Shown: piece after piece, positions 37,640 to 57,935 of the stretch | Numbering within the stretch: the stretch's first letter is position 1 | Layout of the letters: the number at the start of each line of letters is the position of its first letter | Origin: Chitinophagaceae bacterium | GTDB taxonomy: Bacteria; Bacteroidota; Bacteroidia; Chitinophagales; Chitinophagaceae | Assembly (NCBI GenBank): GCA_027489035.1 | Contig: JAIYAN010000001.1 | Span: 145,199 to 209,198 of the forward strand | Reading direction: 5' to 3' | DNA length: 64,000 nucleotides | Made by a program: the position numbers and the translations under genes | The notes under the pieces: model-generated | Seen by the model: the letters and a program-made list of their open reading frames with translations, nothing else | What the model was told of the DNA's origin: nothing | The model's database searches: none

Positions 37640-38686
37640 TTATTGGTTATTTTTGGGGAATTTAGGCTCAAATTCCCAATTCAAATGTTGAAGTCTATTT
37701 TGCAAATCGTTTAGATTATTTATTAAATCTTCAAAACTTGGTTTCTGTTCTTCATAGATCATCTCTTCCAACATTTTGACGTAATCTGCTTTCCAAAACT
37801 TTACTATTTCTACAAATGGAATTGGGTTCAATGTTTTTGGATTGTGTTGATTGTAATCTACTCCAGTGATTCTTGAAAACTTATATCGATGCGCAACAAT
37901 AGTTTCATACAATTCCTTATTAGCCATAGCCTTTTCGGCAATGCCTGCTTTTGTTAAATGGTAAACATCATACAAATGGCGACTCAATCTATCAACACGC
38001 ATTTTTTCTTGGGGCCGATGAAATTCTTCATGCAACAAAAATAATTTCTCCAAAAATGTACGTTCAGGATTCACAGATGGCACAGTGAATAATGGTGTAA
38101 CAAATTCTCTACCTTCAAAAGTCTCATCAACCAAAGAACCAAAAGTTTGATTTGAAAAAGGTTCGCGAAGCGATCGACAGCCAATTTCAATAAGTAATCT
38201 TGGCTGAATATAATCCGTAGGTTTCGGAATAATATTTTCATAATGCACTTCAATAATTCTTGGATCCTGATCGCTGTCTTCAACTGGTAAAACATTGCAT
38301 TTAATTTCAGCAAATCCATTTTTCTGAAAAGCATTTTGTAGCTCATTAAAGAAAACACCTGCGGTGAAAGCGCCTGCTTTTTTTCGCAATGCAGTTCTTT
38401 TTGATTTTGACCATGTCTTCTCGTATTCAAAAAAATAATCCATATCTATTGCCAAATCAATATCTTCAGAAAATCGATGTATTAATTTAAAAGCTTTGCT
38501 CAGAGAAGTACCACCTTTAAACACCAGATGCTTAGCGATATCCATTTGAAAAATAATTTCCAACGTACGGCTTACCCACCAATCTTTTTCTACGGCAAAT
38601 GGCTTCATACCCATTTTTGCGGCTACAGCCTCAAAAACAGCAATTTTTTCTTCCTTCTCAATATTATAAAAATCAATTTTTGCCAT
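37640..38686 (-). CDS. abiEii: AbiEii-type nucleotidyltransferase toxin
   Basis: 348 residues. LVFKGGTSLSKAF (GGTS at 58-61) and RFSEDIDLAID (75-81) are the two nucleotidyltransferase motifs of the AbiEii/AbiGii toxin family (DUF1814), which in type IV toxin-antitoxin systems transfers nucleotides to tRNA or related targets. Length and order are normal for the family. It overlaps the upstream antitoxin gene by 14 bases, so it is translationally coupled. Unusually, the operon continues into the STAND, MoxR and LRR genes. Confidence 0.9.
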   Translation of the reverse strand: MAKIDFYNIEKEEKIAVFEAVAAKMGMKPFAVEKDWWVSRTLEIIFQMDIAKHLVFKGGTSLSKAFKLIHRFSEDIDLAIDMDYFFEYEKTWSKSKRTALRKKAGAFTAGVFFNELQNAFQKNGFAEIKCNVLPVEDSDQDPRIIEVHYENIIPKPTDYIQPRLLIEIGCRSLREPFSNQTFGSLVDETFEGREFVTPLFTVPSVNPERTFLEKLFLLHEEFHRPQEKMRVDRLSRHLYDVYHLTKAGIAEKAMANKELYETIVAHRYKFSRITGVDYNQHNPKTLNPIPFVEIVKFWKADYVKMLEEMIYEEQKPSFEDLINNLNDLQNRLQHLNWEFEPKFPKNNQ

Positions 38687-39278
38687 TGTTTAATGCCTTT
38701 TTCATTATCTTTTGAATCCATACCGGAGCTAATGCAATATCATTTTTCAAATCATTTTCATCTTCTTTTTTTAGCAATAAAATGATTTTTTTCTCTTCTT
38801 CAACACTCAATTTCCCATTACCAATTTCCTTCAATGCTTGAATGACCAAACGGCTGATTTTTCCATTTGCCATTAAGTTTTTTGGCGTCGTTTTCTTAAA
38901 CTTTATTTTGCGCTTACCTAGTTTTATTTCACGAGGTGAGCCATCCGTAAGAAACACAATATTCATTGGCACTTGGGTACTTAATCCCAAAGCGTTTAAT
39001 GCATAACTACCTGAAGGCACAGTTCTAATACAATCACGTTTTGCTATTGCTTCTGCAATTTCTTCAGCGGCGGGCATCAGCTTTCCTAATAGATTACTTT
39101 CTTTAGGCCTAACATATATCCCCTGTGCTATCCTGGCAATAATGTCTTCTTTTTCTAACCTAAAAAGTGAAATCCTAACAGCCTCAGATGAGCCCAAATC
39201 ACTAAAATCAGCAGGAAACAACAGCGTTCCTTTAGGAAGACTTTCTATTTGATTTAATATTTTTTTTTCTATACTCAT
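38673..39278 (-). CDS. abiEi: AbiEi-type antitoxin/autoregulator (DUF6088-like)
   Basis: 201 residues. An N-terminal winged helix (about 1-60, LPKGTLLFPADFSDLGSSEA, RLEKEDIIARIAQGIYVRP) is followed by the AbiEi/DUF6088 core with VPSGSYALNALGLSTQVP. AbiEi proteins bind inverted repeats upstream of their own operon and repress it, and counteract AbiEii. A perfect inverted repeat overlapping the -7 box lies 8-40 bases upstream, in line with this. ATG at 39278. Confidence 0.88.
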   Translation of the reverse strand: MSIEKKILNQIESLPKGTLLFPADFSDLGSSEAVRISLFRLEKEDIIARIAQGIYVRPKESNLLGKLMPAAEEIAEAIAKRDCIRTVPSGSYALNALGLSTQVPMNIVFLTDGSPREIKLGKRKIKFKKTTPKNLMANGKISRLVIQALKEIGNGKLSVEEEKKIILLLKKEDENDLKNDIALAPVWIQKIMKKALNNGKN

Positions 39279-40390: not shown

Positions 40391-40568
40391 ATTATTTAGT
40401 TTAAGATTAAGATAGAAAGGAGGATTGTAAGGTATGTACAATTAAAAGTTATCTTTTAAAAATTCAAACCTGTTAACATTTAATTCCTATTAAAATTCGA
40501 AACAAAAGCAGGTGAATTGAGTACTCAATAAATTAAAACCCATTCATTAGAATGTGATTTAAATTTCC

Positions 40569-41156
40569 CTATTGATTAAGTTCATCAAAAATTGATTTCA
40601 TTAAATCATAACAACCTTCATCAAAATTTTCATCCCATATTTTTCCAGCTATAATTATATATAATACTTTACAAAAAATTATTTGAAGTTCTTCATCTGG
40701 ATATTTTTTTCTTCCAATTTGTCTATTATCAAAATCAAGATCTTTAATTAACATAAATGCGTTGGCATAAATATCTGCTACCTCATCAAAACCATAATCA
40801 AGTTCTTCATAATTTGAATAATTCTCCAGGTTTTTTCTTCCTATTTCATTTACTTTTTTTAAACACGCTCTATAATTTTGATTGTAATATTTTGTTGCAT
40901 CTCCATCATTTAAATCATCAATCAATAGTATAACAGCAAAATCTCGAAATAGAGATCCTATGGTTCTTTCGCACCAAAAACTATATTTACAAAATTGCTC
41001 CAGTAAAATTGTAATTTTTCTTTCAACATCAAGATCCAATTCCTTATTTATTGAATCAATGTAAATATCAATAATCTCAGATTGATCATTTTCCGCTAAG
41101 CATTCAAAAATAGTTTTGTGCAATAATCCTTCGCTTAATTGTGCTTTTGTAATCAT
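40569..41156 (-). CDS. Hypothetical helical protein
   Basis: 195 residues, mostly acidic amphipathic helices (EQFCKYSFWCERTIGSLFRDFAVILLIDDLND). No signal peptide, TM or known motif. ATG at 41156. It has its own copy of the shared operator/promoter motif about 60-90 bases upstream (41214-41248, minus), so it is predicted to belong to the WYL-linked regulon. Function unknown. Confidence 0.65.
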   Translation of the reverse strand: MITKAQLSEGLLHKTIFECLAENDQSEIIDIYIDSINKELDLDVERKITILLEQFCKYSFWCERTIGSLFRDFAVILLIDDLNDGDATKYYNQNYRACLKKVNEIGRKNLENYSNYEELDYGFDEVADIYANAFMLIKDLDFDNRQIGRKKYPDEELQIIFCKVLYIIIAGKIWDENFDEGCYDLMKSIFDELNQ

Positions 41157-41213: not shown

Positions 41214-41248
41214 TCAAATTAAGAGTCCTGCTTGTAATCTATCTACAA
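41214..41248 (-). promoter_or_regulatory. Shared operator-promoter, copy A
   Basis: Minus strand: TTGTAG-ATAGA-TTACAA (41232-41248). The -7-like TTAATTTG lies 23 bases after TTG. It precedes the 195-aa gene. One palindrome mismatch. Confidence 0.6.
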
Positions 41249-41311
41249 TCAGAAATTGATTCAGAATTATTTTCTGTAAAAAAGCAATAACACCATAATA
41301 TTTATTCTTGA

Positions 41312-41346
41312 ATGTAAATAGATTACAACCTACAATTGCATATTTG
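41312..41346 (+). promoter_or_regulatory. Shared operator-promoter, copy B (NADAR gene)
   Basis: ATGTAA-ATAGA-TTACAA (41312-41328), then 24 bases from the first-half G to CATATTTG (41339-41346), a -7 box with one mismatch. It lies 22 bases before the NADAR ATG. Confidence 0.7.
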
Positions 41347-41367: not shown

Positions 41368-41967
41368 ATGTCAACAGAAAAATTTAAAACATTTAATTTA
41401 AATGAAGTAATCTCATTTTACAAAGTAGATGAACCTTTTGGTGCATTATCCAATATGTCTGGGAAGTATTTTCATTTACATGTAAATGATTATTTAATTA
41501 GAAGTAGTGAAGCTTTATATCAAAGTTTACGGTTTACCTCACACCCCGAAATTCAAAAAGAAGTTATACTCAACAAAAGTCCAAAAGGTTCGAAAATGAT
41601 TGCGAAAAAATACAGGGCTCAATATACGAGAGCAGATTTTGATGAGATAAAATTGGAGATTATGTTTTGGTGTTTGAAAGTGAAATTATGTGCGCATCCA
41701 CTTGCTTTTGGTTCATTATTAGAAAAAACGGGTGATAAAGAAATTGTAGAAATCAGCAATAGTGATCGTTTTTGGGGATGTGTGCGTGAAAAAGGAAATG
41801 ACAATATTGTAATTGGAGAAAATAATTTGGGTGAATTGTTGATGAAACTCAGACAATATTACAGAGATAATAAAGGCAAAATGACTTTATTAAAAGTAGC
41901 TCCTTTGGATGTTGTTGATTTTAATTTATTGGGTGAGCAAATAAGGGAAGTGAGAAATGTAGGATAG
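41368..41967 (+). CDS. NADAR family protein (YbiA-like)
   Basis: 199 residues. FYKVDEPFGALSNMS (about 17-31), the SSEALYQSLRF helix, PKGSKMIAKKYR and TGDKEIVEISNSDRFWG are the conserved landmarks of the NADAR (DUF1768) family. Members act on ADP-ribose-type or related N-glycosidic bonds (YbiA/RibX cleave riboflavin intermediates; others remove ADP-ribose from guanine). It lies near an ADP-ribosylglycohydrolase and under the shared operator, so an ADP-ribosylation repair or NAD-signalling role is plausible (inference). A terminator hairpin covers the stop codon. Confidence 0.88.
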   Translation: MSTEKFKTFNLNEVISFYKVDEPFGALSNMSGKYFHLHVNDYLIRSSEALYQSLRFTSHPEIQKEVILNKSPKGSKMIAKKYRAQYTRADFDEIKLEIMFWCLKVKLCAHPLAFGSLLEKTGDKEIVEISNSDRFWGCVREKGNDNIVIGENNLGELLMKLRQYYRDNKGKMTLLKVAPLDVVDFNLLGEQIREVRNVG

Positions 41968-42003: not shown

Positions 42004-42999
42004 TCACTTATACAACCCCACCAACCCCTCTGCCCTATTCTTCACTCGATCAATCAATTCTTGTGGAGCAAGCACTTTTACTTTTTCAGCATAACTTAAA
42101 ATAGTGCCTTCTAATTCTGGTGTTAAATAACATTCAATTTCGAGATGTAAGAAATCTTCATTATGTCCCAGTATTTTTTGAGTAGAATGCAATGGCTTGG
42201 TAAGCATATAACCAGATAAAGATTTATCAAATAACAATTCTACTTTAAAAGGCTTAGAATCGCTGTAAACCGTAGCTCCAAAACCGTATTTGAAAAAATC
42301 CTTTGCATCAAAATCTGCAGAGCGATATCCGCCTTTCATAAGCTCCATGTTTACAACTCTATCTAACGCTAAAGTAGTAATGGCTTCCGACTTTTCCGAA
42401 TAACCTGTGATGTACCAACGATTGCGGTATTCCCTGATAATGTACGCACTAAAAATATGTTGTTTCGTTTCATCACTATTAAACTTCTTGTAATCAACAT
42501 GAAGTGGCAATTTATTGATGATGCTTTCATAAGCCATTTCTATCCAGCGTAAACCTGTATCCGAAATGGGTTGTTCTACTTCAATGATTTGTCGGTTCTC
42601 ATAACCTGGAATTTGAGAAATTCTAAATCCACTTATGAGTTTATCGATAACCGATTCAAACTGATTGAAATATCCACTGTATTTAATTTGTTTAAGTATA
42701 GAGGATGACATATCCAACACTCGAATTTCATCATGTGTAAGTGGAAAACTATTTATGGAAAAATCTTCTTCTGTATAATAATAACCTCCATGAACTTTGT
42801 GGTTTTCTATCGGGGCATTATAAATATCTTTCATTGCCCTGATGTCTTTATTGATTTGAGAATCCGAAAGAGATTCCAATCCAGCACCTTCCATAATCAT
42901 TTCTTTGAGCATTTGTAAGGTTGGGTATTTGCGCATTGAATTTCTCAAACATCCATCAATGATTCTATAGCGGAAAGCAGCATTTTTATTTACGGGCAT
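42004..42999 (-). CDS. WYL-domain transcriptional regulator
   Basis: 331 residues. An N-terminal winged helix (about 1-65, KYPTLQMLKEMI, DSQINKDIRAMKDIY, the DeoR/YafY type) is followed by a central WYL domain (about 150-230, YRNRWYITGYSEKSEAITTLALDRV) and a C-terminal WCX-like extension (about 240-330). WYL regulators often repress defence operons and respond to nucleic-acid ligands. Its gene lies amid at least nine promoters carrying TTGTAA-N5-TTACAA, one of them (43104-43138) in its own divergent upstream region, so it is the best candidate for the cognate regulator (inference). ATG at 42999. Confidence 0.88.
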   Translation of the reverse strand: MPVNKNAAFRYRIIDGCLRNSMRKYPTLQMLKEMIMEGAGLESLSDSQINKDIRAMKDIYNAPIENHKVHGGYYYTEEDFSINSFPLTHDEIRVLDMSSSILKQIKYSGYFNQFESVIDKLISGFRISQIPGYENRQIIEVEQPISDTGLRWIEMAYESIINKLPLHVDYKKFNSDETKQHIFSAYIIREYRNRWYITGYSEKSEAITTLALDRVVNMELMKGGYRSADFDAKDFFKYGFGATVYSDSKPFKVELLFDKSLSGYMLTKPLHSTQKILGHNEDFLHLEIECYLTPELEGTILSYAEKVKVLAPQELIDRVKNRAEGLVGLYK

Positions 43000-43103
43000 A
43001 TCGTATGTTTTTAATTTGGATTAAGCAATATATTAATTTTTGTTTATAAAATTTACAAGTAAAAAAATGAATTGTATTTATTTTAAGAAATAACTTTTTA
43101 TAA

Positions 43104-43138
43104 TTGTAAAAAGATTACAATCGCTGTTTTTATATTTA
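43104..43138 (+). promoter_or_regulatory. Shared operator-promoter, copy C
   Basis: Perfect palindrome TTGTAA-AAAGA-TTACAA (43104-43120), then 24 bases from the first G to TATATTTA (43131-43138). It lies 42 bases before the first small membrane gene and about 105 bases upstream of the divergent WYL gene. Confidence 0.8.
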
Positions 43139-43773: not shown

Positions 43774-44160
43774 TCATTTAGCATTCAACATAACATAAAC
43801 AAAAGCCTCCTCAAAACGCACAACCCTGTTGTCTAGTGTGTACTTTTCTAAAATAAGTGAGCATCTATTTCTGAATTCCGAATCCATTGGAAGATATTCA
43901 AACCTTGATTTTTCTTCTCCTTTGTATTTTATTTCATCAAACCAATACCGCATTACAAATTCCCGTTTCCTTTTTGATGAATCAATTACAAATGCTTCGG
44001 TAACATCATAAGACATGATTAATTCAATTTTTTTAACTACTTTTTTCGATTCTTTTTCACCAGCACTCCCCTTTTCGATTTCTTTACTTTTTGCTTTAAT
44101 TACTTTTTTTACTTCAATTGATGTTGCATTTTCAATTGCTTTTGTTTTCATTTTTACCAT
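43774..44160 (-). CDS. Hypothetical basic protein
   Basis: 128 residues. A Lys/Glu-rich unstructured N-terminus (about 1-45) precedes a small alpha/beta domain (IELIMSYDVTEAFVIDSSKRKREF, RYWFDEIKYKGEEKS). The first 50 residues could bind nucleic acid or simply be a linker. ATG at 44160. The nearest upstream regulatory site is copy D (44395-44429), about 235 bases away, or a closer TTTG-18-TAAGTTCT pair. No family recognised. Confidence 0.55.
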   Translation of the reverse strand: MVKMKTKAIENATSIEVKKVIKAKSKEIEKGSAGEKESKKVVKKIELIMSYDVTEAFVIDSSKRKREFVMRYWFDEIKYKGEEKSRFEYLPMDSEFRNRCSLILEKYTLDNRVVRFEEAFVYVMLNAK

Positions 44161-44394: not shown

Positions 44395-44429
44395 CGAATA
44401 TAGAAATGCTGATTGTAATGTATTTACAA
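44395..44429 (-). promoter_or_regulatory. Shared operator-promoter, copy D
   Basis: Perfect palindrome TTGTAA-N5-TTACAA (44413-44429). On the minus strand the 24-base spacing leads to TATATTCG (44395-44402), one mismatch from TAnnTTTG. It points at the 128-aa gene but with a long leader. The rest of the 44161-44571 gap shows only a 29-codon plus ORF (44343-44432) and the G/T-rich tract. Confidence 0.7.
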
Positions 44430-44442
44430 TGAAGAAATAAAT

Positions 44443-44571: not shown

Positions 44572-44973
44572 TCAATTCTGATATACCCCCAACCAATCTC
44601 TATACAAATAATAATAATTCGGGTAAGTTGTGAAAAATAATTGCTTAGATAAAGTACCTGATATTTGAGAAACGATATAATTGTATATCTCCGAAACTTG
44701 TTCGTTTGTAATTTCATTATTCTCCGTATCGGTTACGAAAACATTATCCCCATCAAATGCCATATCTATCAATGCTATTTCATCTCTGAAAAAAGCATCT
44801 ATCATTTCTTGAGTCGTATTGATCACAAAATACTCGGATTTGAATTTCAATATCAATACCATTTTAAGGTGGCCTATTTTTTTATACAAACCAAGTTGCA
44901 TATTGCCATCATTATCCATTAACAAATATCCGAGCGGACCTACTGCCTCATAATTTTTGAATGTAATTTTCAT
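44572..44973 (-). CDS. Hypothetical protein downstream of ADP-ribosylglycohydrolase
   Basis: 133 residues, a single small alpha/beta domain (YLLMDNDGNMQLGLYKK, MVLILKFKSEYFVINTTQEMI) that looks like the SMI1/KNR4 or immunity-type folds only in general composition; I would not assign it. It overlaps the ADP-ribosylglycohydrolase gene by 26 bases, so the two are coupled. Confidence 0.6.
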   Translation of the reverse strand: MKITFKNYEAVGPLGYLLMDNDGNMQLGLYKKIGHLKMVLILKFKSEYFVINTTQEMIDAFFRDEIALIDMAFDGDNVFVTDTENNEITNEQVSEIYNYIVSQISGTLSKQLFFTTYPNYYYLYRDWLGVYQN

Positions 44974-45895
44974 TGAGATCGATTTTATCTAAAAGGTTAT
45001 TAATTAAATGTTGACTGGCAATTTTATTTCTCCAATCTAATGGAATATCTTCTATCCCATAATACAACCCAGCCAAACCACCTGTTATTGCTGCAATGGT
45101 ATCGGTATCTCCACCTAAATTTACAGCTTTCAAAACAGCATCTTTATAATTATCGGTATTTAAAAAACACCAAATCGAAGCTTCCAATGTGCTCAATACA
45201 TATCCTGTAGATTTGATTTCAGATTCGGGTAAAGCAGCGAAATCAGCTTTGAATAAAAGTTTAAACCATTCCCATTCTGCTTCGTGATCATCATCGCTAT
45301 CGGTAATCCGCCAACCATGTTTCAGATAGGCAGCTCCAGCTTTTACCGCTTCCAATTTATCTTTTCCATCTAACAAAGCACGCATCATTTTTACGTAAAA
45401 CATACAACAATACGAACAAATACTGTTGCGATGGGTAATGTTGTTTTCTCTTGTCATATTAAAAACTGACTTATTAATATCTTCCACAAAAGCATAAGGC
45501 AAAGCCCTCATTAAGCTTCCATTACCTGAAGAATTTTCATCATTACCTCCTGCTAATCCGGGCTTTACCCCAATCATCACTTTCTGTAGCGCACGACTTG
45601 TTGTAATACCAATATCAAATAGTTCGCCGTGTGGCGTCATATAATCATCGCGATACCACTTTACAAACAATTCAGCAAGCGAATGTATATCACCATCGTT
45701 AATGATATTTTCCAAAACACATAAAAGCATGGAAGTGTCATCACTCCAGGTTCCGGGTGGCTGGTTGTACGTTCCATAACCCACCATATCCACTGCGGGA
45801 TTTTCTTTCATCATGTTACGCGTAGAAAATTCATAGGGTACGCCTAATGCATCTCCAACCACAAAACCCCAAAGGGCATCTTTTATGTTTTTCAT
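44948..45895 (-). CDS. ADP-ribosylglycohydrolase (DraG/ARH family)
   Basis: 315 residues. GDALGVPYEF (14-23), TWSDDTSML (about 49-57) and NLGGDTDTIAAITGGLAG (about 262-279) carry the acidic residues that bind the two Mg ions in DraG/ARH hydrolases. The reaction is removal of ADP-ribose from modified protein or nucleic-acid targets, or cleavage of related ADP-ribose compounds, in the cytosol. Two metabolic signals of the same type (NADAR at 41.4 kb and this gene) lie within 4 kb. ATG at 45895. It has no copy of the shared operator directly upstream; it could be read from the 215-aa gene's promoter. Confidence 0.9.
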   Translation of the reverse strand: MKNIKDALWGFVVGDALGVPYEFSTRNMMKENPAVDMVGYGTYNQPPGTWSDDTSMLLCVLENIINDGDIHSLAELFVKWYRDDYMTPHGELFDIGITTSRALQKVMIGVKPGLAGGNDENSSGNGSLMRALPYAFVEDINKSVFNMTRENNITHRNSICSYCCMFYVKMMRALLDGKDKLEAVKAGAAYLKHGWRITDSDDDHEAEWEWFKLLFKADFAALPESEIKSTGYVLSTLEASIWCFLNTDNYKDAVLKAVNLGGDTDTIAAITGGLAGLYYGIEDIPLDWRNKIASQHLINNLLDKIDLNENYIQKL

Positions 45896-45977: not shown

Positions 45978-46019
45978 CTTTTTACTTTTTACTTTTCACT
46001 TTTTACTTTTTATTTTATT
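45978..46019. repeat. (TTTTTAC)n tandem repeat at gene end
   Basis: About five imperfect copies of the 7-mer TTTTTAC. They supply the last codons and stop of the 215-aa gene (IKSKK tail), so slippage would change its C-terminus. Confidence 0.7.
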
Positions 46020-46643
46020 GAAATACCCCCATAATAAATTAGCCCCTTTAAAATTCGCATTCCACACAAAATGATTTTCTTCTAACGTTCTTTCTAAAAC
46101 TAAATCATAAAAAGAAAGCCCATCGGAGATTTTGATTTGTTTAACATATTCAATTGCTTCTGGCTTTTTCTTATTCCAATCTTTTCTTAGTGTAACAATA
46201 TCATAATTTGAATTGGATGGCAATTTGGAATATATCTGTTCAAATTGATGCGCATATAAAATATAACCATAAGTTGGTTTTAGGATTTCATCCAGTTGAG
46301 ATATCGTTTTAAATGATTTTGAATTGTTGATTAAATCAATTGGATTGTAATTTGAAATGGTGCTATAATAAGTAAGCGCAAATATTATAGAATCGTAATT
46401 CAATTCTGGCAAATGTGATAACAGTTCTTTTAATGGTGGCAATTGCGAAACCCTTGATGATAATGATTCCCCACCTTTTGAATGAATTAATACAATGGGC
46501 TTAGGTAAATCTAGGCTAATCAAAAATTCATAATTAAAATCATACTTCTCATCATTACTAGATCCAATATTTTCTGAATTAAATTTTTCAAGTTTGATTA
46601 TTTTTTGAGACAATGGAAGTTCTTTAATCAGATTGTTATTCAT
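45996..46643 (-). CDS. Hypothetical protein
   Basis: About 215 residues from the ATG at 46643. The track's TTG at 46664 lies inside the predicted -7 box and cannot be transcribed from that promoter. Mixed alpha/beta protein with KPIVLIHSKGGESLSSRVSQL and YDIVTLRKDWNKKKPEAIEY. No family recognised. Operator copy E lies directly upstream with an expected leader of only about 10 bases. Its 3' end merges with a TTTTTAC repeat. Confidence 0.65.
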   Translation of the reverse strand: MNNNLIKELPLSQKIIKLEKFNSENIGSSNDEKYDFNYEFLISLDLPKPIVLIHSKGGESLSSRVSQLPPLKELLSHLPELNYDSIIFALTYYSTISNYNPIDLINNSKSFKTISQLDEILKPTYGYILYAHQFEQIYSKLPSNSNYDIVTLRKDWNKKKPEAIEYVKQIKISDGLSFYDLVLERTLEENHFVWNANFKGANLLWGYFNKIKSKK

Positions 46644-46661
46644 TGATGGACTTATTTTCCA

Positions 46662-46696
46662 CAATGTTAAAATTCACTTTTGTACTCTATTTACAA
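46662..46696 (-). promoter_or_regulatory. Shared operator-promoter, copy E
   Basis: Minus strand: TTGTAA-ATAGA-GTACAA (46680-46696), 24 bases to TAACATTG (46662-46669). It faces the 215-aa gene. Confidence 0.7.
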
Positions 46697-46723
46697 TGAA
46701 AATTTTTCTTTTATTTTTTTAAA

Positions 46724-46758
46724 TTGTAAAAAGATTACAATCAGATATTCTAGGTTTG
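46724..46758 (+). promoter_or_regulatory. Shared operator-promoter, copy F
   Basis: Perfect TTGTAA-AAAGA-TTACAA (46724-46740), 24 bases to a perfect -7 box TAGGTTTG (46751-46758). Divergent from copy E, it serves the 61-aa membrane gene. Confidence 0.85.
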
Positions 46759-46859: not shown

Positions 46860-47045
46860 ATGAATAAAATAAGAATAAGCAATTTGCTTTCTAAATTTTT
46901 GGGAATGTCGGTAATTAATGAACTTTTCTTTTTATTTATCCGGTTCAAAGGAATCGACACAATAGCATTTTCAACCTATATTACTTTGATATTTGGATGG
47001 TGTTTTTTTGTGGAGTATAAATATAGGCAAGTAGAAAATTCATGA
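46860..47045 (+). CDS. Small two-TM membrane protein
   Basis: 61 residues with two hydrophobic segments (about 16-30 and 36-52) and a short charged end. Similar in size and design to the pair at 43.2-43.6 kb, although sequence identity is low. ATG at 46860, about 100 bases after operator copy F. Function unknown. Confidence 0.65.
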   Translation: MNKIRISNLLSKFLGMSVINELFFLFIRFKGIDTIAFSTYITLIFGWCFFVEYKYRQVENS

Positions 47046-47120: not shown

Positions 47121-49895
47121 TTAAATGTCATCTTGAACAGTTTTCAACAAAATATCTTGAAAATATGTTTTTCTAATTGACCTCTGATCTCCAATCATTT
47201 TAATTGCTTCATCTGCAACCATTTTTACTAAATCTTTTTCGCCAATTTCATTTAATTTCAAAGCGGCCAAATAAAATGATTCAATAGGTAAATTATCGAT
47301 TTTCTTTATGGTCGATTTTTCTTTTTGCAATAATATGTATTGGATTTTTTCTTGGATAATCGAAGTTTCAATTTTTTTATTTGACAAACAATAATACATC
47401 AATTCAATATTAGCCATTTGGCTTTGTTGATTTGGCTTTGTTGATTCATTAATGAGTGATTTTGCTAAGGTATAATATTGCTCTCGTTCTGAATCTTTCA
47501 TCAAAGAAAACAATCGGTGTATTGAGCCAAATATTTCTAGATTGTCATTTAATTCTATGTTTAATAATAAGGCCTCTGAATATAATATTCTAGCTATTTC
47601 TATTTCTCCATTTTCAAAATTCAAAATACCAAGGCTATTCAAACTCAAAGCTATTCCTTTTTTATCCCCTAATTTTCTTCTGATTTCCAAAGATTCTTGA
47701 TGTAATCTCGCTACTTCATCAATTTTCCCTCGCTCTTCGTATATATTCGCGAGTTTATTCAATACAATACTTATTCCTTTTTTATCTCCTAATTTTCTTC
47801 TGATTTCCAAAGATTCTTGATAGAAATTCTCTGCCTCTTCAAATTCCCCTTGCCCCATGTATAGTTCCCCAAGATAAAATAAAACAATGCCTGTTCCTTT
47901 TTTATCCCCTAATTGTTTTCTAAAATCCAAAGATTCTAGAAATAATCTTTCTGCTTCATCAATTTTCCCTTGCTTTTTGTATAAGCCCCCTAGGTTAAGC
48001 AATACATAACTTGTTCCTAATTTATCCCCTAATTGTTTTCTAATTTCCAAAGATTCTAGATACAACTTTTCTGACTCTTGAAATTTGCCTTGTTCTGAGT
48101 ATAAAAAACCAAGATTACTCAAACTTTCTCCGATTCCTTTTTTATCGCCTAATTGTTTTCTAATTTCCAAAGATTCTAGGTATAACTTTTCTACTTTATC
48201 TTTTTTATTTTGTGAGTTATAAACCACGCCTATATCATTAATTATATTAGCTTGTAGTTTTATGAATTTATTTTGTTTTGATAATTCTAAACCCAATAAA
48301 AAACAATTTAATGATTCATTATAATTTCTTTGATGATATTCTAATTCGCCCATTTTTATATATAAATTGCAAAGGCCATAGAAATCTTCGATTGCTTTCT
48401 TTTCATTTATAATAAAATCAAATTTTTCTTTTGCTTGTGTATATCTACCTTGAAGCGTATCAAGTTGTGCGTCAAAAAGTAATAAATCACTAAGGATTTT
48501 TTTATTATTCAACAGTGTTGCTTCTTTTTGTGCTATTTCCATTGCGAGACTAAAAAAGTCAAAGTTTCCAGTAGTGTAGAACTTATCGACCAATATAATA
48601 AGTATCTCCAAATCTGTATTTCCAGGGTTTTCAGGAAAACGTTTTATTACTGATTCAAACTGAACATAATTTTCGATAGCTAGCGAAAATAAAATGTTAG
48701 CAATCATTTCAGCAGATAGTTTCTGTATTTCTTGCGTTTCATTATCTGCAAGGTCAGATATTTCAATCAGTACTTCTGTTTGGTCATTATTACAAAATCT
48801 CAACACAATCATTTCAACGGCTCCTTGTAATATTTTAAATTCCGCTATCCGATTAAATAATTTCATCACATCTTTTGCATCATTCACTTTTGAAAAATGC
48901 AACTCTGCCAACATGAATTCAAGAAATCGATCAAAAGAAAAACGAACAAAACAATCATCTTTTTCCCATTCTTCCATTAACACCCCAAGTTCTAGTAACT
49001 GAATATATGGGCTGTCTTTTTGTGTATTTATTATGTATGATTTGAACGAATCCATTTTTATGAGTGCATCTCGTTCTAATCGTTCACTATTTTGTTTATC
49101 TAATTCTCTTACCAACAAACTTAAAAGTTTAAGTCGCTCAGGAAATCCAGCGGATTCATTTGTCTTTTCTATTATGATATTATCCAAATAGAGACGCATC
49201 GCTTCATCATTTTTTAACTGCGATGGTAATTTTGAGCGATGAAAAGATTGCAAAATCAATCTAGTCATGAGTGGATTTCGAAGCAATTCTATAGTAGTTC
49301 CATTCGAATCTAATTCTGAGAAATTTGTTAGTGGCCTATATTTATATATCCCTTCATCATCTAAAACTCCAGAATCTTTCCATTTGAAATTACGATAAGC
49401 ATTAAAGAGTTGTTCTGTAGAGTTTTTTGCAACAGGTTTAAGGCGCACTACATTTGATGATATCTTTTCACCAGCTTTTTCTTCTTCAACTTTGAAATAT
49501 TGATCAGGTGCTATTTCTCCGAATTTTGCGAGAGTCCTACTATATGCACTATCCCGAATACTCACAATCACTTTAAACCAGCTGTAATTAGATGATTGAG
49601 CAACAATGTTCTCAACCGATTTTATCAAATCGTTTATACTACCAGAATATTCATTCAAGGCATCAATAATCAAATAACAATTTCGATTAGATGTAGAAAA
49701 AAGATTATCAGTCAAACTCAAAAACTCTTCGAGGTAATTTAGTTTCAAAGCACAATCCCGAAGAAATTTACTTGCAATATCTGTTTGATTCAAAGCACTA
49801 CCACGATAAAACATAACCATATGTCCTTCACCATGCCATAATTCAGTTTTTTGGGCAAGCAAAGTACTTTTGCCAATTCCGCTCTCCCCACCCAA
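47121..49895 (-). CDS. STAND NTPase/TPR half, frame-separated from its HEPN-like half
   Basis: 924 residues as given, but the listed TTG start sits inside the P-loop strand. The frame is open to 50024 and adds AIQALITSGKYLREATVERADLNEYLDAF, which aligns with the pre-NTPase helix of the 1219-aa protein. Walker A is GGESGIGKST and the Walker B region reads CYLIIDALNEYSG. The C-terminal half holds five or more TPRs of 40 residues (LYLESLEIRKQLGDKKG type). Together with the 389-aa ORF upstream (stop at 49994) this would make one protein of about 1355 residues if one A were added to the A4 run at 50023-50026. Homologue: 33961-37620. As printed, no sensible start exists. Confidence 0.75.
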   Translation of the reverse strand: MGGESGIGKSTLLAQKTELWHGEGHMVMFYRGSALNQTDIASKFLRDCALKLNYLEEFLSLTDNLFSTSNRNCYLIIDALNEYSGSINDLIKSVENIVAQSSNYSWFKVIVSIRDSAYSRTLAKFGEIAPDQYFKVEEEKAGEKISSNVVRLKPVAKNSTEQLFNAYRNFKWKDSGVLDDEGIYKYRPLTNFSELDSNGTTIELLRNPLMTRLILQSFHRSKLPSQLKNDEAMRLYLDNIIIEKTNESAGFPERLKLLSLLVRELDKQNSERLERDALIKMDSFKSYIINTQKDSPYIQLLELGVLMEEWEKDDCFVRFSFDRFLEFMLAELHFSKVNDAKDVMKLFNRIAEFKILQGAVEMIVLRFCNNDQTEVLIEISDLADNETQEIQKLSAEMIANILFSLAIENYVQFESVIKRFPENPGNTDLEILIILVDKFYTTGNFDFFSLAMEIAQKEATLLNNKKILSDLLLFDAQLDTLQGRYTQAKEKFDFIINEKKAIEDFYGLCNLYIKMGELEYHQRNYNESLNCFLLGLELSKQNKFIKLQANIINDIGVVYNSQNKKDKVEKLYLESLEIRKQLGDKKGIGESLSNLGFLYSEQGKFQESEKLYLESLEIRKQLGDKLGTSYVLLNLGGLYKKQGKIDEAERLFLESLDFRKQLGDKKGTGIVLFYLGELYMGQGEFEEAENFYQESLEIRRKLGDKKGISIVLNKLANIYEERGKIDEVARLHQESLEIRRKLGDKKGIALSLNSLGILNFENGEIEIARILYSEALLLNIELNDNLEIFGSIHRLFSLMKDSEREQYYTLAKSLINESTKPNQQSQMANIELMYYCLSNKKIETSIIQEKIQYILLQKEKSTIKKIDNLPIESFYLAALKLNEIGEKDLVKMVADEAIKMIGDQRSIRKTYFQDILLKTVQDDI
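47640..48220 (-). repeat. Near-identical 120-base TPR-coding repeats
   Basis: Five tandem copies of 120 bases (40 codons) with shared blocks such as TTTTTTATCCCCTAATTTTC and AATTTCCAAAGATTCTAG. They code for the TPR array of the 47-51 kb STAND protein. Confidence 0.85.
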
Positions 49896-49993
49896 TACAA
49901 ATCCATTAAAAGTGCTCGAACTAAAAGCATCTAAATATTCATTTAGATCTGCTCTTTCAACAGTTGCTTCACGAAGATATTTTCCAGAAGTAA

Positions 49994-51280: not shown

Positions 51281-52129
51281 TCAAGCGAAATCACACGGAC
51301 TGATATCTGTAATTTCTCCAGAAAGCGTAGGAATATCCTCTTTAATGCTCTCAATCATATTTTCAAGATCTGTCTGCATTTCCATCTGATCATCTGTCAG
51401 GTCTTCCCAATCTTCAACATTTTCTTCCAATTCCCTGTGCGTATCGCCCAAAGCTTCAAAATTTGAAAATATAGAGTCGATTCTTTCTGCCACATCGTAC
51501 TTCTTGAATTTTTTCAAGTAATTATCTGCTTGCTTTTCGGTTAAACCTTCGGCATTAAAAACAAAACTTCTGTTATTACGACCAAGTCCAAATGCAATAA
51601 ATTGATTTGTGACAGAATTGAAAATTCCTACTATAGGAGCATGTTGAAACGGAGGGAAAATATGATCCTGAAATCCCTTTATTAATTTTTTATTAAGTAA
51701 TTGAATAATTGCATTGTAATTATCTTCAGAGTCGTGATACCCACCACCATGTGCTTTTAATGGGAATATGAATAAATGGCTTTTATACTCAGGTGGTAGT
51801 TTAGAAATTTTTGACTTGTAAAACGCCAACGATTCTGGATCTCCATATAAATCAAAAACAATACTTTTCTTCACCAGGTCAAGTATTTCGTTATCGAATT
51901 CAGTTTTTGTTTTATCAATTTTATTTACCGTTTGTTTAGTTTTAGAAACTGGTTCTGATTTATTGCTTTTTTTGACTGTTCCAGTTTTTTTAGCAGCCTT
52001 GCTTTTAGAAGTAGTAGATAGATTATTTGATAACTTGTCAGTCTTAGATACAGTTTTCAAAACCTTAGGGGTGTCTCCTGTTTTTACAGAGGTGCCTTTT
52101 TTTGTAGGCTTAGTTGATTTTTTAGCCAT
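51281..52129 (-). CDS. Hypothetical protein with basic tail and acidic end
   Basis: About 282 residues from the ATG at 52129; the longer track start adds a hydrophobic leader that looks untranslated. Residues 1-75 are Lys/Thr/Ser-rich and unstructured, of the histone-H1-like type. The middle (about 80-210) is a folded alpha/beta domain (IVFDLYGDPESLAFYKSKIS, GIFNSVTNQFIAFGLGRNNRSF). The end (about 225-282) is strongly acidic. No family recognised. It lies upstream of the split STAND locus on the same strand, 117 bases apart, so it may or may not belong to it. Confidence 0.65.
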   Translation of the reverse strand: MAKKSTKPTKKGTSVKTGDTPKVLKTVSKTDKLSNNLSTTSKSKAAKKTGTVKKSNKSEPVSKTKQTVNKIDKTKTEFDNEILDLVKKSIVFDLYGDPESLAFYKSKISKLPPEYKSHLFIFPLKAHGGGYHDSEDNYNAIIQLLNKKLIKGFQDHIFPPFQHAPIVGIFNSVTNQFIAFGLGRNNRSFVFNAEGLTEKQADNYLKKFKKYDVAERIDSIFSNFEALGDTHRELEENVEDWEDLTDDQMEMQTDLENMIESIKEDIPTLSGEITDISPCDFA

Positions 52130-52390
52130 ATTATTTTTTTTGAAATTTAAGATAAAAAAAGGAATTACAAATACCATTTAGATACCTTTCGTACTTTTCA
52201 TTATTTTCAGGTACAAAAAAAGAAATTGAGTTTTCTGATTTATCAAATGTGATTAGTTAGATTTTTGTGATCCTTTTTTCGGACTGATGAACAGATTTAT
52301 TTTGTTTATCAACAAAATGGCAAAAACACCAAAAGACAATCCCCAAATAAAACACCCCTTAACAAAACTTTACCAACCTCATCCCCCATT

Positions 52391-52407
52391 TTGTAAAAAC
52401 ATTACAA
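52391..52407. promoter_or_regulatory. Additional palindrome, copy G
   Basis: Perfect TTGTAA-AAACA-TTACAA, but no good -7 box at the usual spacing on either strand. It lies 130 bases before copy H, so it may be an auxiliary operator. The surrounding 464-base gap (52130-52593) holds no gene I can support. Confidence 0.55.
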
Positions 52408-52520
52408 TTTGATTTCGGATTTTTATCCCGAATCAAAAAATAAATAGTAATGGAAAGTAAAACCCCAAAAAACAGAAATCCACAGACAAAATTTTAATCT
52501 GAATTTTTTATTTTTTTGGA

Positions 52521-52555
52521 TTGTACAAAGATTACAATCACGGATTTTATGTTTG
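52521..52555 (+). promoter_or_regulatory. Shared operator-promoter, copy H (AAA ATPase gene)
   Basis: TTGTAC-AAAGA-TTACAA (52521-52537), 24 bases to a perfect -7 box TATGTTTG (52548-52555), 38 bases before the AAA gene's ATG. The track's TTG start at 52516 lies inside this promoter and is therefore wrong. Confidence 0.85.
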
Positions 52556-52593
52556 TCCTCCACCATCATTATCCACTTATAAATCCTTTCATT

Positions 52594-54273
52594 ATGTTCA
52601 ACATTAATCAATCCAACAACAACGTTCTTGATGCTATTGAGCAAATTTATTGCATCACAAAAGACAGTACGCTAACATTTGATATGAGTAAGGAAACAAA
52701 ACTATCAACATGGTTAGATACCCTAAAATCGTTTTTTAATTGCGATGAGGAACAAGCTATTTTATTGTCGATAATGATACAATCCAATTTAGAAAACAAT
52801 AATGTTAGCATAAAAGAAATTTTAGACCATGCCAATTTAAAAACCTCGGCTTCTTTATATATAAATAATGTACTTGCGCCATTGGTGAAACTCGAGTGGA
52901 TTTCGCCTAAAAAAGATGTAAAATTTTATCCGCTTACCGAATACAACATCAGCAACAAACTGATACGTTCTGTTTTAACAGGAAAATTAGAAATGAGCAA
53001 TGAAGTTAAAATTGAAAACTCTTTTCAACTACTTTCTCATTTTCAAATGAGGTTGGGCGAAAAAAATCACAAACGCATTTCTTATGCCGAATTCATAAAA
53101 TGGACAAATGAATTATTGAATACACATGCGTCAATTGAATTATCTGATTTTATTTTAAAAATGAATATGCCTGAAGATGATGCTACGCATTTCATGTATG
53201 CTTGCTCGAGATTTTATACTGGACAGGAAGAATCAGATCATGATGACATCATTAGAGATTTAACCCCTCCTAAAGATGTTCAATACAAATTGAGGAATTC
53301 ATTCAAATCCGGTTCCAACTTTTTAATCAAATCGGAGTTGATTAAAGAAACTGTTAGTGATGATATGTTTAAAAGCACATCTTATTCACTTACTGAAAAA
53401 GCCGTTCGTGCATTTGACAAAACAGCTGTTGTGAAAAATAAAATGGTTGAAGGGATGATGAAACATTTGGAACCTAATGCCATTACAGAAAAGAAATTAA
53501 TATTCGATAGCAACGAACAAAAATTGGTCAACAAATTACATAACATGTTGAGTGTTGATAATTTTTCCCAACTAACCGAAAGATTAGAAAGTCAGGGCAT
53601 GAAAAAAGGCATAAGTGTTTTATTATATGGTTATCCTGGTACTGGTAAAACTGAAACAGTATTGCAACTGGGAAAAAACAGCAACCGATATATCATGATG
53701 GCTGACGCCAGTAAAATTAGAAGCAAATGGGTGGGTGAAACCGAAAAAAACATGAAGGCATTGTTTGATGAATATAGAAAAGCAATGATAGATTTTAAAG
53801 AAACCCCAATTCTATTGTTTAATGAAGCAGATGCGATTTTAGGAAAACGACATACGGTAACCGATCGTGGCGATCAGATGGAAAATGCCATGCAGAATAT
53901 TCTGTTGCAAGAGCTTGAAAATTTCGAGGGTATATTTATTGCAACAACAAACTTGGTTGACAATTTAGACAAAGCATTTGACAGAAGGTTTCTATATAAA
54001 ATTAGATTTGAAAAACCAGGGGCACAAACGTTGATTCAAATTTGGAAATCGAAATTCCCAAAGATTAAAACGGGGATATTGAAAAACATCTGTGCTAAAA
54101 TAAATTTAACTGGTGGACAAATTGAAAATATCCGTAAAAAGATTGCCGTAGATTCTTTGCTAGATGACAAGTTAAAAATAAATGAAAACTATTTAATGCA
54201 ATTGGCACAACAAGAAATGATGTTGGAGAAAAAGAATGAAAGAAATGCAATAGGATTCAATAAGGGAATATAA
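52594..54273 (+). CDS. AAA ATPase with winged-helix-like N-terminus
   Basis: About 559 residues from the ATG at 52594. Helical N-terminal region with winged-helix-like parts (about 60-300), then a classic AAA core: Walker A GYPGTGKT (about 346-353), Walker B ILLFNEADAIL (about 406-416, with Asn-Glu in place of the usual Asp-Glu), sensor-1 FIATTNL, and D-R-R-F arginine-finger-type motif (AFDRRFLYKIRF). This branch of single-domain AAA ATPases is common in Bacteroidota. It probably forms a hexamer that remodels a protein target; the target is unknown. It is the first of three plus-strand genes up to 55.8 kb. Confidence 0.85.
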   Translation: MFNINQSNNNVLDAIEQIYCITKDSTLTFDMSKETKLSTWLDTLKSFFNCDEEQAILLSIMIQSNLENNNVSIKEILDHANLKTSASLYINNVLAPLVKLEWISPKKDVKFYPLTEYNISNKLIRSVLTGKLEMSNEVKIENSFQLLSHFQMRLGEKNHKRISYAEFIKWTNELLNTHASIELSDFILKMNMPEDDATHFMYACSRFYTGQEESDHDDIIRDLTPPKDVQYKLRNSFKSGSNFLIKSELIKETVSDDMFKSTSYSLTEKAVRAFDKTAVVKNKMVEGMMKHLEPNAITEKKLIFDSNEQKLVNKLHNMLSVDNFSQLTERLESQGMKKGISVLLYGYPGTGKTETVLQLGKNSNRYIMMADASKIRSKWVGETEKNMKALFDEYRKAMIDFKETPILLFNEADAILGKRHTVTDRGDQMENAMQNILLQELENFEGIFIATTNLVDNLDKAFDRRFLYKIRFEKPGAQTLIQIWKSKFPKIKTGILKNICAKINLTGGQIENIRKKIAVDSLLDDKLKINENYLMQLAQQEMMLEKKNERNAIGFNKGI

Positions 54274-54356
54274 AAATAATACTCGCCTTCGACTTTAACC
54301 GTGGGCGATTTAAAAAAAATAAATAATTCGGAATATTTTTATGAATGATTTTTCAT

Positions 54357-54391
54357 TTGTAAATACAATACAATCACTAATCTGAGATTTG
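54357..54391 (+). promoter_or_regulatory. Shared operator-promoter, copy I
   Basis: TTGTAA-ATACA-ATACAA (54357-54373), 24 bases to GAGATTTG (54384-54391). One or two mismatches; 72 bases before the 190-aa gene. Confidence 0.6.
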
Positions 54392-54463: not shown

Positions 54464-55036
54464 ATGAAATCGATTCCTTATTGCCCAATTGCACGAAAAA
54501 AAAGACACACCATTAGTACACCAAAAGTTGAATGGAAAAGATACCGACCAAATAGATATTTATATCATGTTAGTTATGGCGGTACATTAAATGTAAATGA
54601 AGAAAATGTATTGTATAAACGACTGAGTATAGCTACCGAAGGAATTTGTGGAAAAGAAAAAGGTTTGGGTGGTGTATGGGCAAACAATCAGATTAAAAGG
54701 GTAAATCATTTATGGCCCATTTGTTTTGACAGTTGGGACTGTGATTCACATGAATCCTATTTAAAGATGTTGTACAAATATGATGTTTGGCAAATTGACA
54801 CCAAACTAATTGACAATATTTGGTATTTAGATCCGAATTTGATAGAAGGAAATGATGGAAGTGGCGACGCTACAGATTATTTGTATTGCGAAAATACCAT
54901 TCATCCTCGTGCATTAAAATTATATACATTTACCATTAATGATTATAAGTTTTTGTATGAAGACAAATTCAATGTTGAATTTAGTTTAGATCCAGTAGAA
55001 AACATAAATAATTTTATTAAAACTAAATGGTGGTAA
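54464..55036 (+). CDS. Hypothetical protein, possible ART-like fold
   Basis: 190 residues with no TM. RYLYHVSYGGTL (about 31-42) followed by a helix, GICGKEKGLGGVWANNQ (about 63-79) and LWPICFDSW resembles the Y-x-Y-H-x-(S/T) then G-x-V-W-A pattern seen in several ADP-ribosyltransferase-like proteins. The catalytic glutamate is not obvious, so this is a weak call. Neighbouring NADAR and ADP-ribosylglycohydrolase genes make it worth testing. It has its own operator copy I and is followed by the FtsK-like gene 43 bases downstream. Confidence 0.6.
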   Translation: MKSIPYCPIARKKRHTISTPKVEWKRYRPNRYLYHVSYGGTLNVNEENVLYKRLSIATEGICGKEKGLGGVWANNQIKRVNHLWPICFDSWDCDSHESYLKMLYKYDVWQIDTKLIDNIWYLDPNLIEGNDGSGDATDYLYCENTIHPRALKLYTFTINDYKFLYEDKFNVEFSLDPVENINNFIKTKWW

Positions 55037-55079
55037 TTTATATTGAAAAGAAATTAATGGGATTAATTAATTTAGTAAA

Positions 55080-55706
55080 ATGCTCATTCCACTTATTATA
55101 GGCAAAAACAGTAATGGCGATAACCAGATGATTGATTTAGCTCAGTCGCCGTTATTGATGATTTCATATTGCGAAGAGGAGCAGTTAAAGAACATTGTTA
55201 CACAATTAACCAATTTAGATTACCCTTTTAAACAATCTGATTATTATATTGTGTCAAGTAGAAAATGTGCGTACTGGAATATTGATTTGCAACATGCCAT
55301 TCATTTTTATAAAGACGATCCAAGTAAAGGTAACATCAACAAAAAATCGAAATTACTAAAAATTATAAATGATGAAATCTCCAGAAGAGAACGGATTTTA
55401 AAAAAGAATAAAGGAATAGATTTTAAAAGGTACTTTTCATTAAACACCTGGAAAGATGAAAAACTTTCTTACCAATTTTTTATAATTGATGACATTTGGG
55501 ATATCGTAATTTCCAAACCTAAAACGATTGGATTAAGTTTGATGCGCATCATTTTATACGGAAGCGATGTTGGCATTCATACTATATTTACCAGCAAATT
55601 GTCTTATAGAAATTTACTTGAACAATTAATCAATATCAATCCTTCCATTACTAAAGAGTTACAAAAAAATATGGGGTGCCTGAGCCTAAAAGAATCAACA
55701 GTATAG
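55080..55706 (+). CDS. FtsK/SpoIIIE-like pseudo-ATPase, frameshifted near the end
   Basis: 208 residues as given. IPLIIGKNSNGDNQMIDLAQSP at the front aligns with the G-K-D-x-x-G-x-P-x-x-x-D-L-A-x-M-P-H segment that precedes the FtsK P-loop, but the Walker A position reads LLMISYCEEEQLKN with no GSGKS. YQFFIIDDIWDIV stands where Walker B should be, and YGSDVGIHTIFTSKLSY matches the G-R-x-x-G-I-H-x-I-x-A-T-Q-R segment. After residue 198 the frame stops at TAG; an alternative frame continues to TGA at 55789 with INSIGHELLFTADNIVFHKK, matching the FtsK 'G-x-G-D-M-L-F' region. Adding one G at 55673-55676 repairs it (about 236 residues). A nucleotide-free FtsK-like protein may act as a partner of the AAA ATPase. 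Confidence 0.7.
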   Translation: MLIPLIIGKNSNGDNQMIDLAQSPLLMISYCEEEQLKNIVTQLTNLDYPFKQSDYYIVSSRKCAYWNIDLQHAIHFYKDDPSKGNINKKSKLLKIINDEISRRERILKKNKGIDFKRYFSLNTWKDEKLSYQFFIIDDIWDIVISKPKTIGLSLMRIILYGSDVGIHTIFTSKLSYRNLLEQLININPSITKELQKNMGCLSLKESTV

Positions 55707-56455: not shown

Positions 56456-56490
56456 CAAAAGTAAATGCCATGTTTGTAATAGAAATACAA
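56456..56490 (-). promoter_or_regulatory. Shared operator-promoter, copy J
   Basis: Minus strand: TTGTAT-TTCTA-TTACAA (56474-56490), 24 bases to a perfect -7 box TACTTTTG (56456-56463), 7 bases before the ATG of the 207-aa gene. Confidence 0.8.
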
Positions 56491-56518
56491 TTGAAATAAT
56501 TTTCAATAAAATCTGAGA

Positions 56519-56553
56519 TTGTAAAAAGATTCCAATCAGGACTTTTAAGTTTG
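56519..56553 (+). promoter_or_regulatory. Shared operator-promoter, copy K (RmuC-like gene)
   Basis: TTGTAA-AAAGA-TTCCAA (56519-56535), 24 bases to a perfect -7 box TAAGTTTG (56546-56553), 35 bases before the RmuC-like ATG. Divergent from copy J. Confidence 0.85.
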
Positions 56554-56588: not shown

Positions 56589-57935
56589 ATGAATATCAAT
56601 ATCGACAATTTAAAAAAGCTCATTGAATCTATTAGAAACATCCATTTTTTTCAACGATTATTCAGCTGGGGAAAAATCAGACAGCAATTAATAGATGGTG
56701 TGACAGATCTTCAAAAAATGGAATCTTTGATTGAACAATTAAACAATCAAAACGATGTATTGATTTTGGAATTAAATACTTCAAATGCAAATTTAAAAGC
56801 AGCTAACGATATCGTTTCTAGGTATGATGGAGAAAGAGAAAAATTGAATTATATCATTCAAGAAAAAGAAAACAAATTAACCAAAATTGAAAAAGACCTA
56901 TCCTCCGTTATTACAGAAAATGAAAACAATAAAATCAATCTTGCCAAATCTGAAAATCATTTGGCTGTATTAACTCAAAAACATCAATCAATGGAGGTTG
57001 AGTTATTAAAAACACGAGACGAGAACAACAATTTAAATGCCGAAGAAAAAAATAGAAGGGATAAATATGAACAAGATGTTGTTGTACTGAATGCCATAAG
57101 AACGCAAATTCAAGATGATCGAAATAGGGAATTAAATGATAGAGCCATTGCAGAAGCTAATAGAAGAGATAAACTTAAAGAAACCTGGAGCAAGCATCAG
57201 ATTAATGTAAAAGGATTGATAAAAAACATTTGTCAAAAACATACCATTGAATATGTTGAGGCCGTTCCATTCAAAGGAGAACCAGATAACACGATTAAAA
57301 TTTGCGATGAGTTTGTAATCTTTGATGCAAAAAGTCCAGCTACAGATGATTTAAGTAATTTCCCAACTTACATTAAAACACAAGCCGAATCTGCGAAAAA
57401 ATATGCAAAGCATGAAAATGTAAAATCGGATATCTTTTTTGTGATACCGACCAATACATTAGAACGACTGACTCAATTTGTATTCAACTTGGCTGATTAT
57501 AATGTGTTTATTATTTCAGTTGATGCACTTGAACAAATCATGCTTAGTTTAAAGAAGATTGAAGAATATGAATTTGCAGAGCAATTGAGTCCGGAAGAGC
57601 GTGACAATATTTGCAGGATACTTGGGAAGTTTGCGCATCTTACTAAAAGACGCATTCAAATAGACAGTTTTTTTGCCAAACAATTTATAGAACTCGCATA
57701 TAAATCGGAAGCTGATTTACCAAAAGATATCTTTGAAAAAGTTGTAGAATTTGAACGATCTGAAAAACTAAATCCCCCAATAGAGAAAAGAGCAAAAGCC
57801 ATTAGCACCAAAGAATTGGAAAAAGATTTAAACAAAATAAATAACGAAGCTTTTTCAAAAGGCATAATCATTGATGATACTAAAATTTCTAATGGAATAA
57901 ACGAGTTGGATTTATACAAACCTGAGAACGAGTAA
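56589..57935 (+). CDS. RmuC-like coiled-coil PD-(D/E)xK nuclease-type protein
   Basis: 448 residues. A long coiled coil (about 35-205) is followed by a domain (about 205-330) with EPDNTIKICDEFVIFDAKSP, which carries the P-D ... D-A-K signature of PD-(D/E)xK nucleases as found in RmuC (PDxxVxLP-x-G-x-x-x-x-I-D-S-K), and then QAESAKKYAKHENVKSDIFFVIPT, the typical beta strand after the active site. The C-terminus is charged and helical. RmuC limits recombination and some relatives act in anti-phage defence. It is driven by its own copy of the shared operator. Nuclease activity is inferred from motif only. Confidence 0.78.
   Translation: MNINIDNLKKLIESIRNIHFFQRLFSWGKIRQQLIDGVTDLQKMESLIEQLNNQNDVLILELNTSNANLKAANDIVSRYDGEREKLNYIIQEKENKLTKIEKDLSSVITENENNKINLAKSENHLAVLTQKHQSMEVELLKTRDENNNLNAEEKNRRDKYEQDVVVLNAIRTQIQDDRNRELNDRAIAEANRRDKLKETWSKHQINVKGLIKNICQKHTIEYVEAVPFKGEPDNTIKICDEFVIFDAKSPATDDLSNFPTYIKTQAESAKKYAKHENVKSDIFFVIPTNTLERLTQFVFNLADYNVFIISVDALEQIMLSLKKIEEYEFAEQLSPEERDNICRILGKFAHLTKRRIQIDSFFAKQFIELAYKSEADLPKDIFEKVVEFERSEKLNPPIEKRAKAISTKELEKDLNKINNEAFSKGIIIDDTKISNGINELDLYKPENE

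Follow-up and report, generated by a model that had tools for sequence, protein, structure and literature searches.

A WYL-domain protein as the very probable regulator of a palindrome-marked promoter set in a Chitinophagaceae genome

In the 64,000-nucleotide stretch of Chitinophagaceae DNA analysed here (the window), one palindrome recurs in front of neighbouring genes, and the question is which protein acts on it. The initial annotation pointed to a WYL-domain protein with a winged helix encoded amid the palindrome-bearing genes. This gene (WYL1; 42004..42999, minus strand) is indeed present and encodes 331 residues with Pfam matches to the WYL (1.5e-8) and WCX (7.8e-10) domains; Pfam returns no N-terminal HTH, and the winged helix-turn-helix (wHTH) at the N-terminus is taken from the predicted structure, which gives the wHTH-WYL-WCX architecture of the DriD type. 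The perfect palindrome described for its divergent upstream region is also confirmed, as ATTGTAA-AAAGA-TTACAAT at 43103-43121. WYL1 is very probably the regulator of about a dozen promoters that share this palindrome. Comparative data support this role well, namely operators at homologous genes, covariation between recognition helix and half-site, and linkage in sister genomes, with the qualification that a second WYL protein, WYL2, takes its place in some relatives.

The palindrome, GATTGTAA-N5-TTACAATC (19-21 bp), occurs in 12 copies across an island of about 16-17 kb (40.4-56.5 kb), three of them being the perfect ATTGTAA-N5-TTACAAT. When up to three mismatches to ATTGTAAN5TTACAAT are allowed, the window contains 34 matches vs 21.7 +/- 4.8 in shuffles; the signal resides in the near-perfect copies. 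With both strands counted, the 17-kb island contains 14 composite sites (palindrome, N9 and TAnnTTTG) that reach a score of 17/20 or more, compared with one in 400 kb of background sequence from this genome and about 0.02 per simulated island. Beyond the island, pattern searches, on which the genome-wide claims on sites rest, returned one perfect site in the 3.0-Mb genome, located on contig C8 upstream of an SbcD/SbcC-like operon, with a weaker second palindrome 4.7 kb from it. The scattering over many single genes, which had been regarded as unusual for such a factor, is less pronounced than assumed, because nearly all sites fall within the island and only these two lie on another contig.

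At the left end of the island, a site with the weak -7 box TATCTTAA (40407..40442, minus) lies upstream of a gene for a secreted protein (likely start 40390), whose ortholog in the sister genome G148 is also preceded by the palindrome. It is followed by a site with TTAATTTG at 8 nt (41215..41249, minus), upstream of 40569-41156, and by a site with CATATTTG (41311..41346, plus), upstream of the gene for a NADAR-domain protein (41368..41967, plus; Pfam 3e-22, with the NCBIfam NADAR anti-phage family below its cut-off) and found again before the NADAR ortholog in G148. Between WYL1 and the divergent membrane-protein gene 43181, the perfect palindrome is combined with TATATTTA (43103..43138, plus). 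A second perfect copy, with TATATTCG (44395..44430, minus; kept in L054 and L055), lies upstream of a small conserved gene (43774..44160, minus), and in L055 a WYL gene comes after a site of this type in the same orientation. The site with TAACATTG (46662..46697, minus; kept in the sister genomes G147 and G148) is upstream of an operon in which the ADP-ribosylglycohydrolase (ARH) gene (44948..45895, minus; Pfam 8e-74) is accompanied by two conserved genes, 45996..46664 (minus; orthologs in G147, G148, G161 and G010) and 44572..44973 (minus; 133 aa), neither of which gave an informative family match.

In the right part, a perfect composite (20/20) with TAGGTTTG (46723..46758, plus) is located upstream of the small gene 46860-47045. 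A palindrome at 52390..52408, with a weak -7 box on either strand and no assigned orientation (kept in G147), lies between 51281-52177 (minus) and the gene for an AAA ATPase resembling IetA according to Pfam and PADLOC (52516..54273, plus; likely ATG 52594), which itself follows a site with TATGTTTG (52520..52555, plus; kept in G147 and G148). Further copies carry GAGATTTG (54356..54391, plus), upstream of the two conserved genes 54464 and 55080 (54464..55706, plus; the first with orthologs in G147 and G148, the second in G147 and G010), TACTTTTG (56456..56491, minus), upstream of 55825 (likely start 56448), and TAAGTTTG (56518..56553, plus; kept in G147), upstream of a coiled-coil gene with no Pfam family above threshold (56589..57935, plus). 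Divergent site pairs are spaced 44-45 bp. An NTPase-TPR gene and a HEPN-like gene (47121-51163) stand without palindromes among the palindrome-bearing genes; they were probably inserted into the island, because the islands of G147 and G148 showed no ortholog. An AbiEii-type toxin gene with a DUF6088 antitoxin-like partner (37640-39278) adjoins the island, and twelve tandem 156-bp repeats (61832-63847) lie within a large gene whose product is probably a surface protein.

The geometry of these promoters is readily apparent from the position of the -7 box. At 9 of the 13 island sites scanned, TAnnTTTG occurs exactly 9 nt past the 19-mer (background at this offset 1.35%, P about 4e-11), and the same spacing is repeated in G147, in G148 and on contig C8. 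In this phylum TAnnTTTG serves as the housekeeping -7 box, which is located at -12 to -5 in flavobacteria (PMC9723704; PMC7366714). Because this box is fixed 9 nt after the palindrome, the palindrome is placed by its sequence context over the -33 region, where it would span about -40 to -22, with its centre at about -31, in place of a -33 element; a set of 58 predicted promoters from this genome did not yield a definable -33 motif. When oriented by the -7 box, the 5-bp core shows the consensus AWASA (mostly AAAGA, ATACA, ATAGA or close variants) in 28 or so of 32 sites, with TTCTA, GTTAA and AACAT as clear exceptions, and hardly any site shows the reverse complement. Such polarity goes beyond the needs of a symmetric dimer alone and suggests that sigma or polymerase touches the core.

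The closest counterpart of this arrangement is DriD, the Caulobacter WYL activator of the SOS-independent damage response. WYL1 shares with it the wHTH-WYL-WCX architecture, a site of about 20 bp held at one distance from the -10 (here -7) box over the -35 (here -33) region, nuclease targets and the closest fold. In the structurally studied DriD promoters, a 20-bp pseudo-palindrome lies at one distance from the -10 element, over -35, and sigma region 4 is held at its centre (PMC12340889). The two proteins differ in that they are only about 15% identical, the arginine pair with which DriD binds ssDNA (RSWR) is replaced by Thr and Ala (T-x-x-A) in WYL1, and the WYL1 targets are clustered in one island and use the Bacteroidota -7 box. 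In structure comparison, the best solved-structure matches of the WYL1 model are wHTH-WYL-WCX regulators (DriD, Z 17.4 over 185 residues; BrxR, 14.0; CapW, 12.7; PafBC, 12.2), the model confidence being high in the wHTH, WYL and WCX parts and low at residues about 89-143. A phmmer search of the PDB with a single WYL sequence gave no match and a profile was needed instead; the WYL family profile matched DriD and PafBC at 1e-13 to 1e-15 (PafBC at 1e-14) vs 4e-4 for BrxR and 7e-4 for CapW. The mycobacterial activators PafBC and SiwR have the same architecture as WYL1, and the 19-bp palindrome of SiwR lies next to the SiwR gene, between -35 and -10 (PMC10693628). PafBC, unlike the homodimer proposed for WYL1, is a heterodimer, and both PafBC and SiwR sense ssDNA through residues not conserved in WYL1; a second WYL gene, as an obligate pair of the PafBC kind would have, is absent from the island. 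Among 46 homologues, the second position of the arginine pair is Ala, Gly or Ser and never Arg. The signal of WYL1 is probably something other than ssDNA held as in DriD, PafBC and SiwR, because this pair is missing.

Taken together, these features suggest that WYL1 is probably a homodimeric, DriD-like activator of the island promoters, acting at the -33 position; binding, activation, dimer formation, contact with sigma and a damage-linked signal are all predicted from the comparisons above. The WYL1 homodimer would bind the palindrome in place of the -33 element and be triggered by signal binding to its WYL/WCX part. The triggered dimer would then aid the primary-sigma polymerase, as DriD does, at promoters without a dependable -33 element, so that the ADP-ribose (ARH, NADAR) and nucleic-acid-processing genes of the island and the distant SbcCD-like operon would be switched on. 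WYL1 would probably also drive its own expression.

A rather unlikely alternative, which corresponds to the BrxR/CapW type proposed in the initial annotation, is that WYL1 is a repressor covering the -33 region until a phage- or damage-derived ligand frees it, the fixed spacing marking the position where a single operator best blocks polymerase. BrxR and CapW, repressors of defence islands, share the WYL1 fold and architecture, palindromic operators and, tentatively, a defence-like neighbourhood; those defence-linked WYL repressors that have been characterised recognize palindromes close to promoters and govern defence genes, and the TTG of the left arm lies 24 nt from the -7 box and might serve as the -33 element of a constitutive promoter. 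ADP-ribosylglycohydrolase-centred (ARG) systems with WYL regulators are, moreover, predicted to be negatively regulated (PMC9503650). CapW operators, however, overlap the -10 element and those of BrxR lie downstream of it, whereas the palindrome here lies upstream, separated from the -7 box by a near-constant 9 nt and with a directional core, as in DriD, and both sequence and fold of WYL1 are closer to DriD and PafBC. The activator is favoured because geometry, profile and fold match DriD best.

Evidence linking the WYL family itself to palindromes of this design is provided by the upstream regions of 54 distant Chitinophagaceae homologues, which were searched with the focal trio left out and no preset sequence. 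The exact palindrome pattern is absent around these genes, and what had looked like failed co-occurrence in the exact-pattern search gave way, in the preset-free 8-5-8 search, to a family operator, CTRYGCAR-N5-YTGCRYAG, of the same 8-5-8 design and near the own start of the WYL gene (about 40-75 nt before it in most). Palindromes with spacer 5 and at least 7/8 matches were found upstream of 22 of the 54 homologues vs no more than 5 for any even spacer; the remaining odd spacers also score, sharing their centre with spacer 5. Across the 57 family sites, a -7-like box occurs at 8 nt (13) or 9 nt (26), the 39 being counted as site-orientations, and no other offset exceeds 8. The recognition helix covaries with the half-site: an Arg (S-x-R-T) is paired with GCAA in 26/26 cases, and a helix without this Arg with GTAA in 4/5 cases outside the focal clade (Fisher 1.6e-4, ignoring phylogeny). 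WYL1, with the helix SDSQ and no Arg, has a GTAA palindrome, as the covariation predicts. No clear operator was found for L006-L008, the nearest homologues at 37-42%, and GC-rich palindromes by the L051 and L052 WYL genes were rejected as operators, being downstream and terminator-like.

The sister species G147 and G148, two Chitinophagaceae MAGs, encode WYL1 orthologs with 97% and 91% identity. Despite the reshuffled gene order of their islands, the palindrome and its 9-nt spacing are retained at the ARH operon, the AAA ATPase, the 54464 family and, wherever it is intact, NADAR. Composites with at most one mismatch occur in both genomes on the WYL1 contig only, and six comparison genomes have 0-1 of them; among 394 family genomes scanned, 33 have any such site, mostly a single one. 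In G161 and G082, orthologous ARH and AAA genes lie under the same palindrome, with WYL2 nearby and WYL1 absent. WYL2 is 26-28% identical to WYL1, and in G147 and G148, where both are present, it is encoded inside a palindrome-driven operon. In G010 the ARH operon has sites and no WYL gene was found; the contig stops about 0.3 kb past the last of these sites. The initial annotation had named genomes with the palindrome but no such WYL gene as a refutation, and G161, G082 and G010 go part of the way towards it; as sites occur with WYL2 or without WYL1 in relatives, the palindrome tracks the WYL clade rather than the WYL1 ortholog alone. WYL1, WYL2, L224 and L226 form one clade in the tree (99/88 support).

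It is improbable that another WYL protein is the main binder and WYL1 a minor one, either WYL2 in relatives or a WYL1-WYL2 heterodimer modelled on PafBC, which consists of two WYL subunits. WYL2 does reside in palindrome-controlled operons of G147 and G148 and adjoins sites in G161, but the genome of the window shows the complete set of sites, and none of its four WYL genes is WYL2; WYL1 alone lies in the island, and its helix fits the GTAA half-site. That the palindrome is bound by some unrelated or distant factor, with the WYL gene merely a target, is very improbable: G010 has palindrome promoters with no WYL gene found, but its contig stops shortly after the last site, and operators close to the starts of WYL homologues agree with the palindrome in design, core and -7 geometry. 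The ECF sigma factor named initially is an unlikely candidate, since the promoters use the housekeeping box TAnnTTTG downstream of the palindrome.

Judging from domain content, the regulon attributed to WYL1 consists of nucleic-acid repair or processing genes and ADP-ribose genes. Palindrome sites also precede a UvrD-PDDEXK protein gene in relatives, and similar sites are found before RecC/RecD-like genes in G283 and RmuC in G323. A full LexA was not found in the window's genome, one S24-peptidase protein being found. Matches to defence islands comprise the IetA-like AAA ATPase and the anti-phage-like NADAR, below or without curated cut-offs. With its ARH, WYL regulator, NADAR and helicase/nuclease neighbours, the island resembles the ARG-centred anti-ADP-ribosylation systems with WYL regulators of actinobacteria, planctomycetes and proteobacteria, which are predicted to be repressed (PMC9503650). 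It differs from them in its occurrence in Bacteroidota, its many separate promoters and activator-like geometry, and its phosphatase and chaperone parts were not identified. A reverse-transcriptase gene (L035:10836-13766), with a WYL paralog directly upstream, lies 2-4 kb from the SbcCD-like operon with the perfect trans site, and an RT relative is also found near sites in G323.

In a sister WYL branch, the homologues L049, L047, L045, L163, L169 and L170 have CTRYGCAR-N5-YTGCRYAG operators and are divergent to RNA-repair genes (TROVE/Ro, RtcB and MXAN_6230-type RING); a similar operator precedes Hen1-Pnkp in G114. From this gene context, these Chitinophagaceae WYL proteins look like regulators in an RtcR-like role. 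Tentatively, the whole family may have a readable operator code, in which the CTRYGCAR-N5-YTGCRYAG branch would govern RtcB, Ro/TROVE, Hen1-Pnkp and RING in place of RtcR, and the TTGTAA-N5-TTACAA branch DNA-processing and ADP-ribose genes in a genome lacking a full LexA, both replacing the -33 element and sensing a non-ssDNA ligand. An operator shared by the whole family and set at a fixed promoter geometry would allow WYL regulons to be read from sequence, would bring ADP-ribose removal and the repair of both DNA and RNA together under one regulator family, and offers clear targets for establishing what WYL domains sense without the ssDNA arginines. Limited literature searches turned up neither a characterised Bacteroidota WYL regulator nor a paper connecting WYL with flavobacterial RNA repair. 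Between the WYL and RING genes, tRNA-like genes are observed that contain long insertions and have a total length of 117-149 nt, and ARAGORN called no tRNA at them. Y RNA-like copies (YrlA, below the gathering score) follow the TROVE gene at L049:13855-14082, and Y RNA-like or tRNA-like elements near WYL homologues are also noted at L032:2746-2894 and L169:7645-7761.
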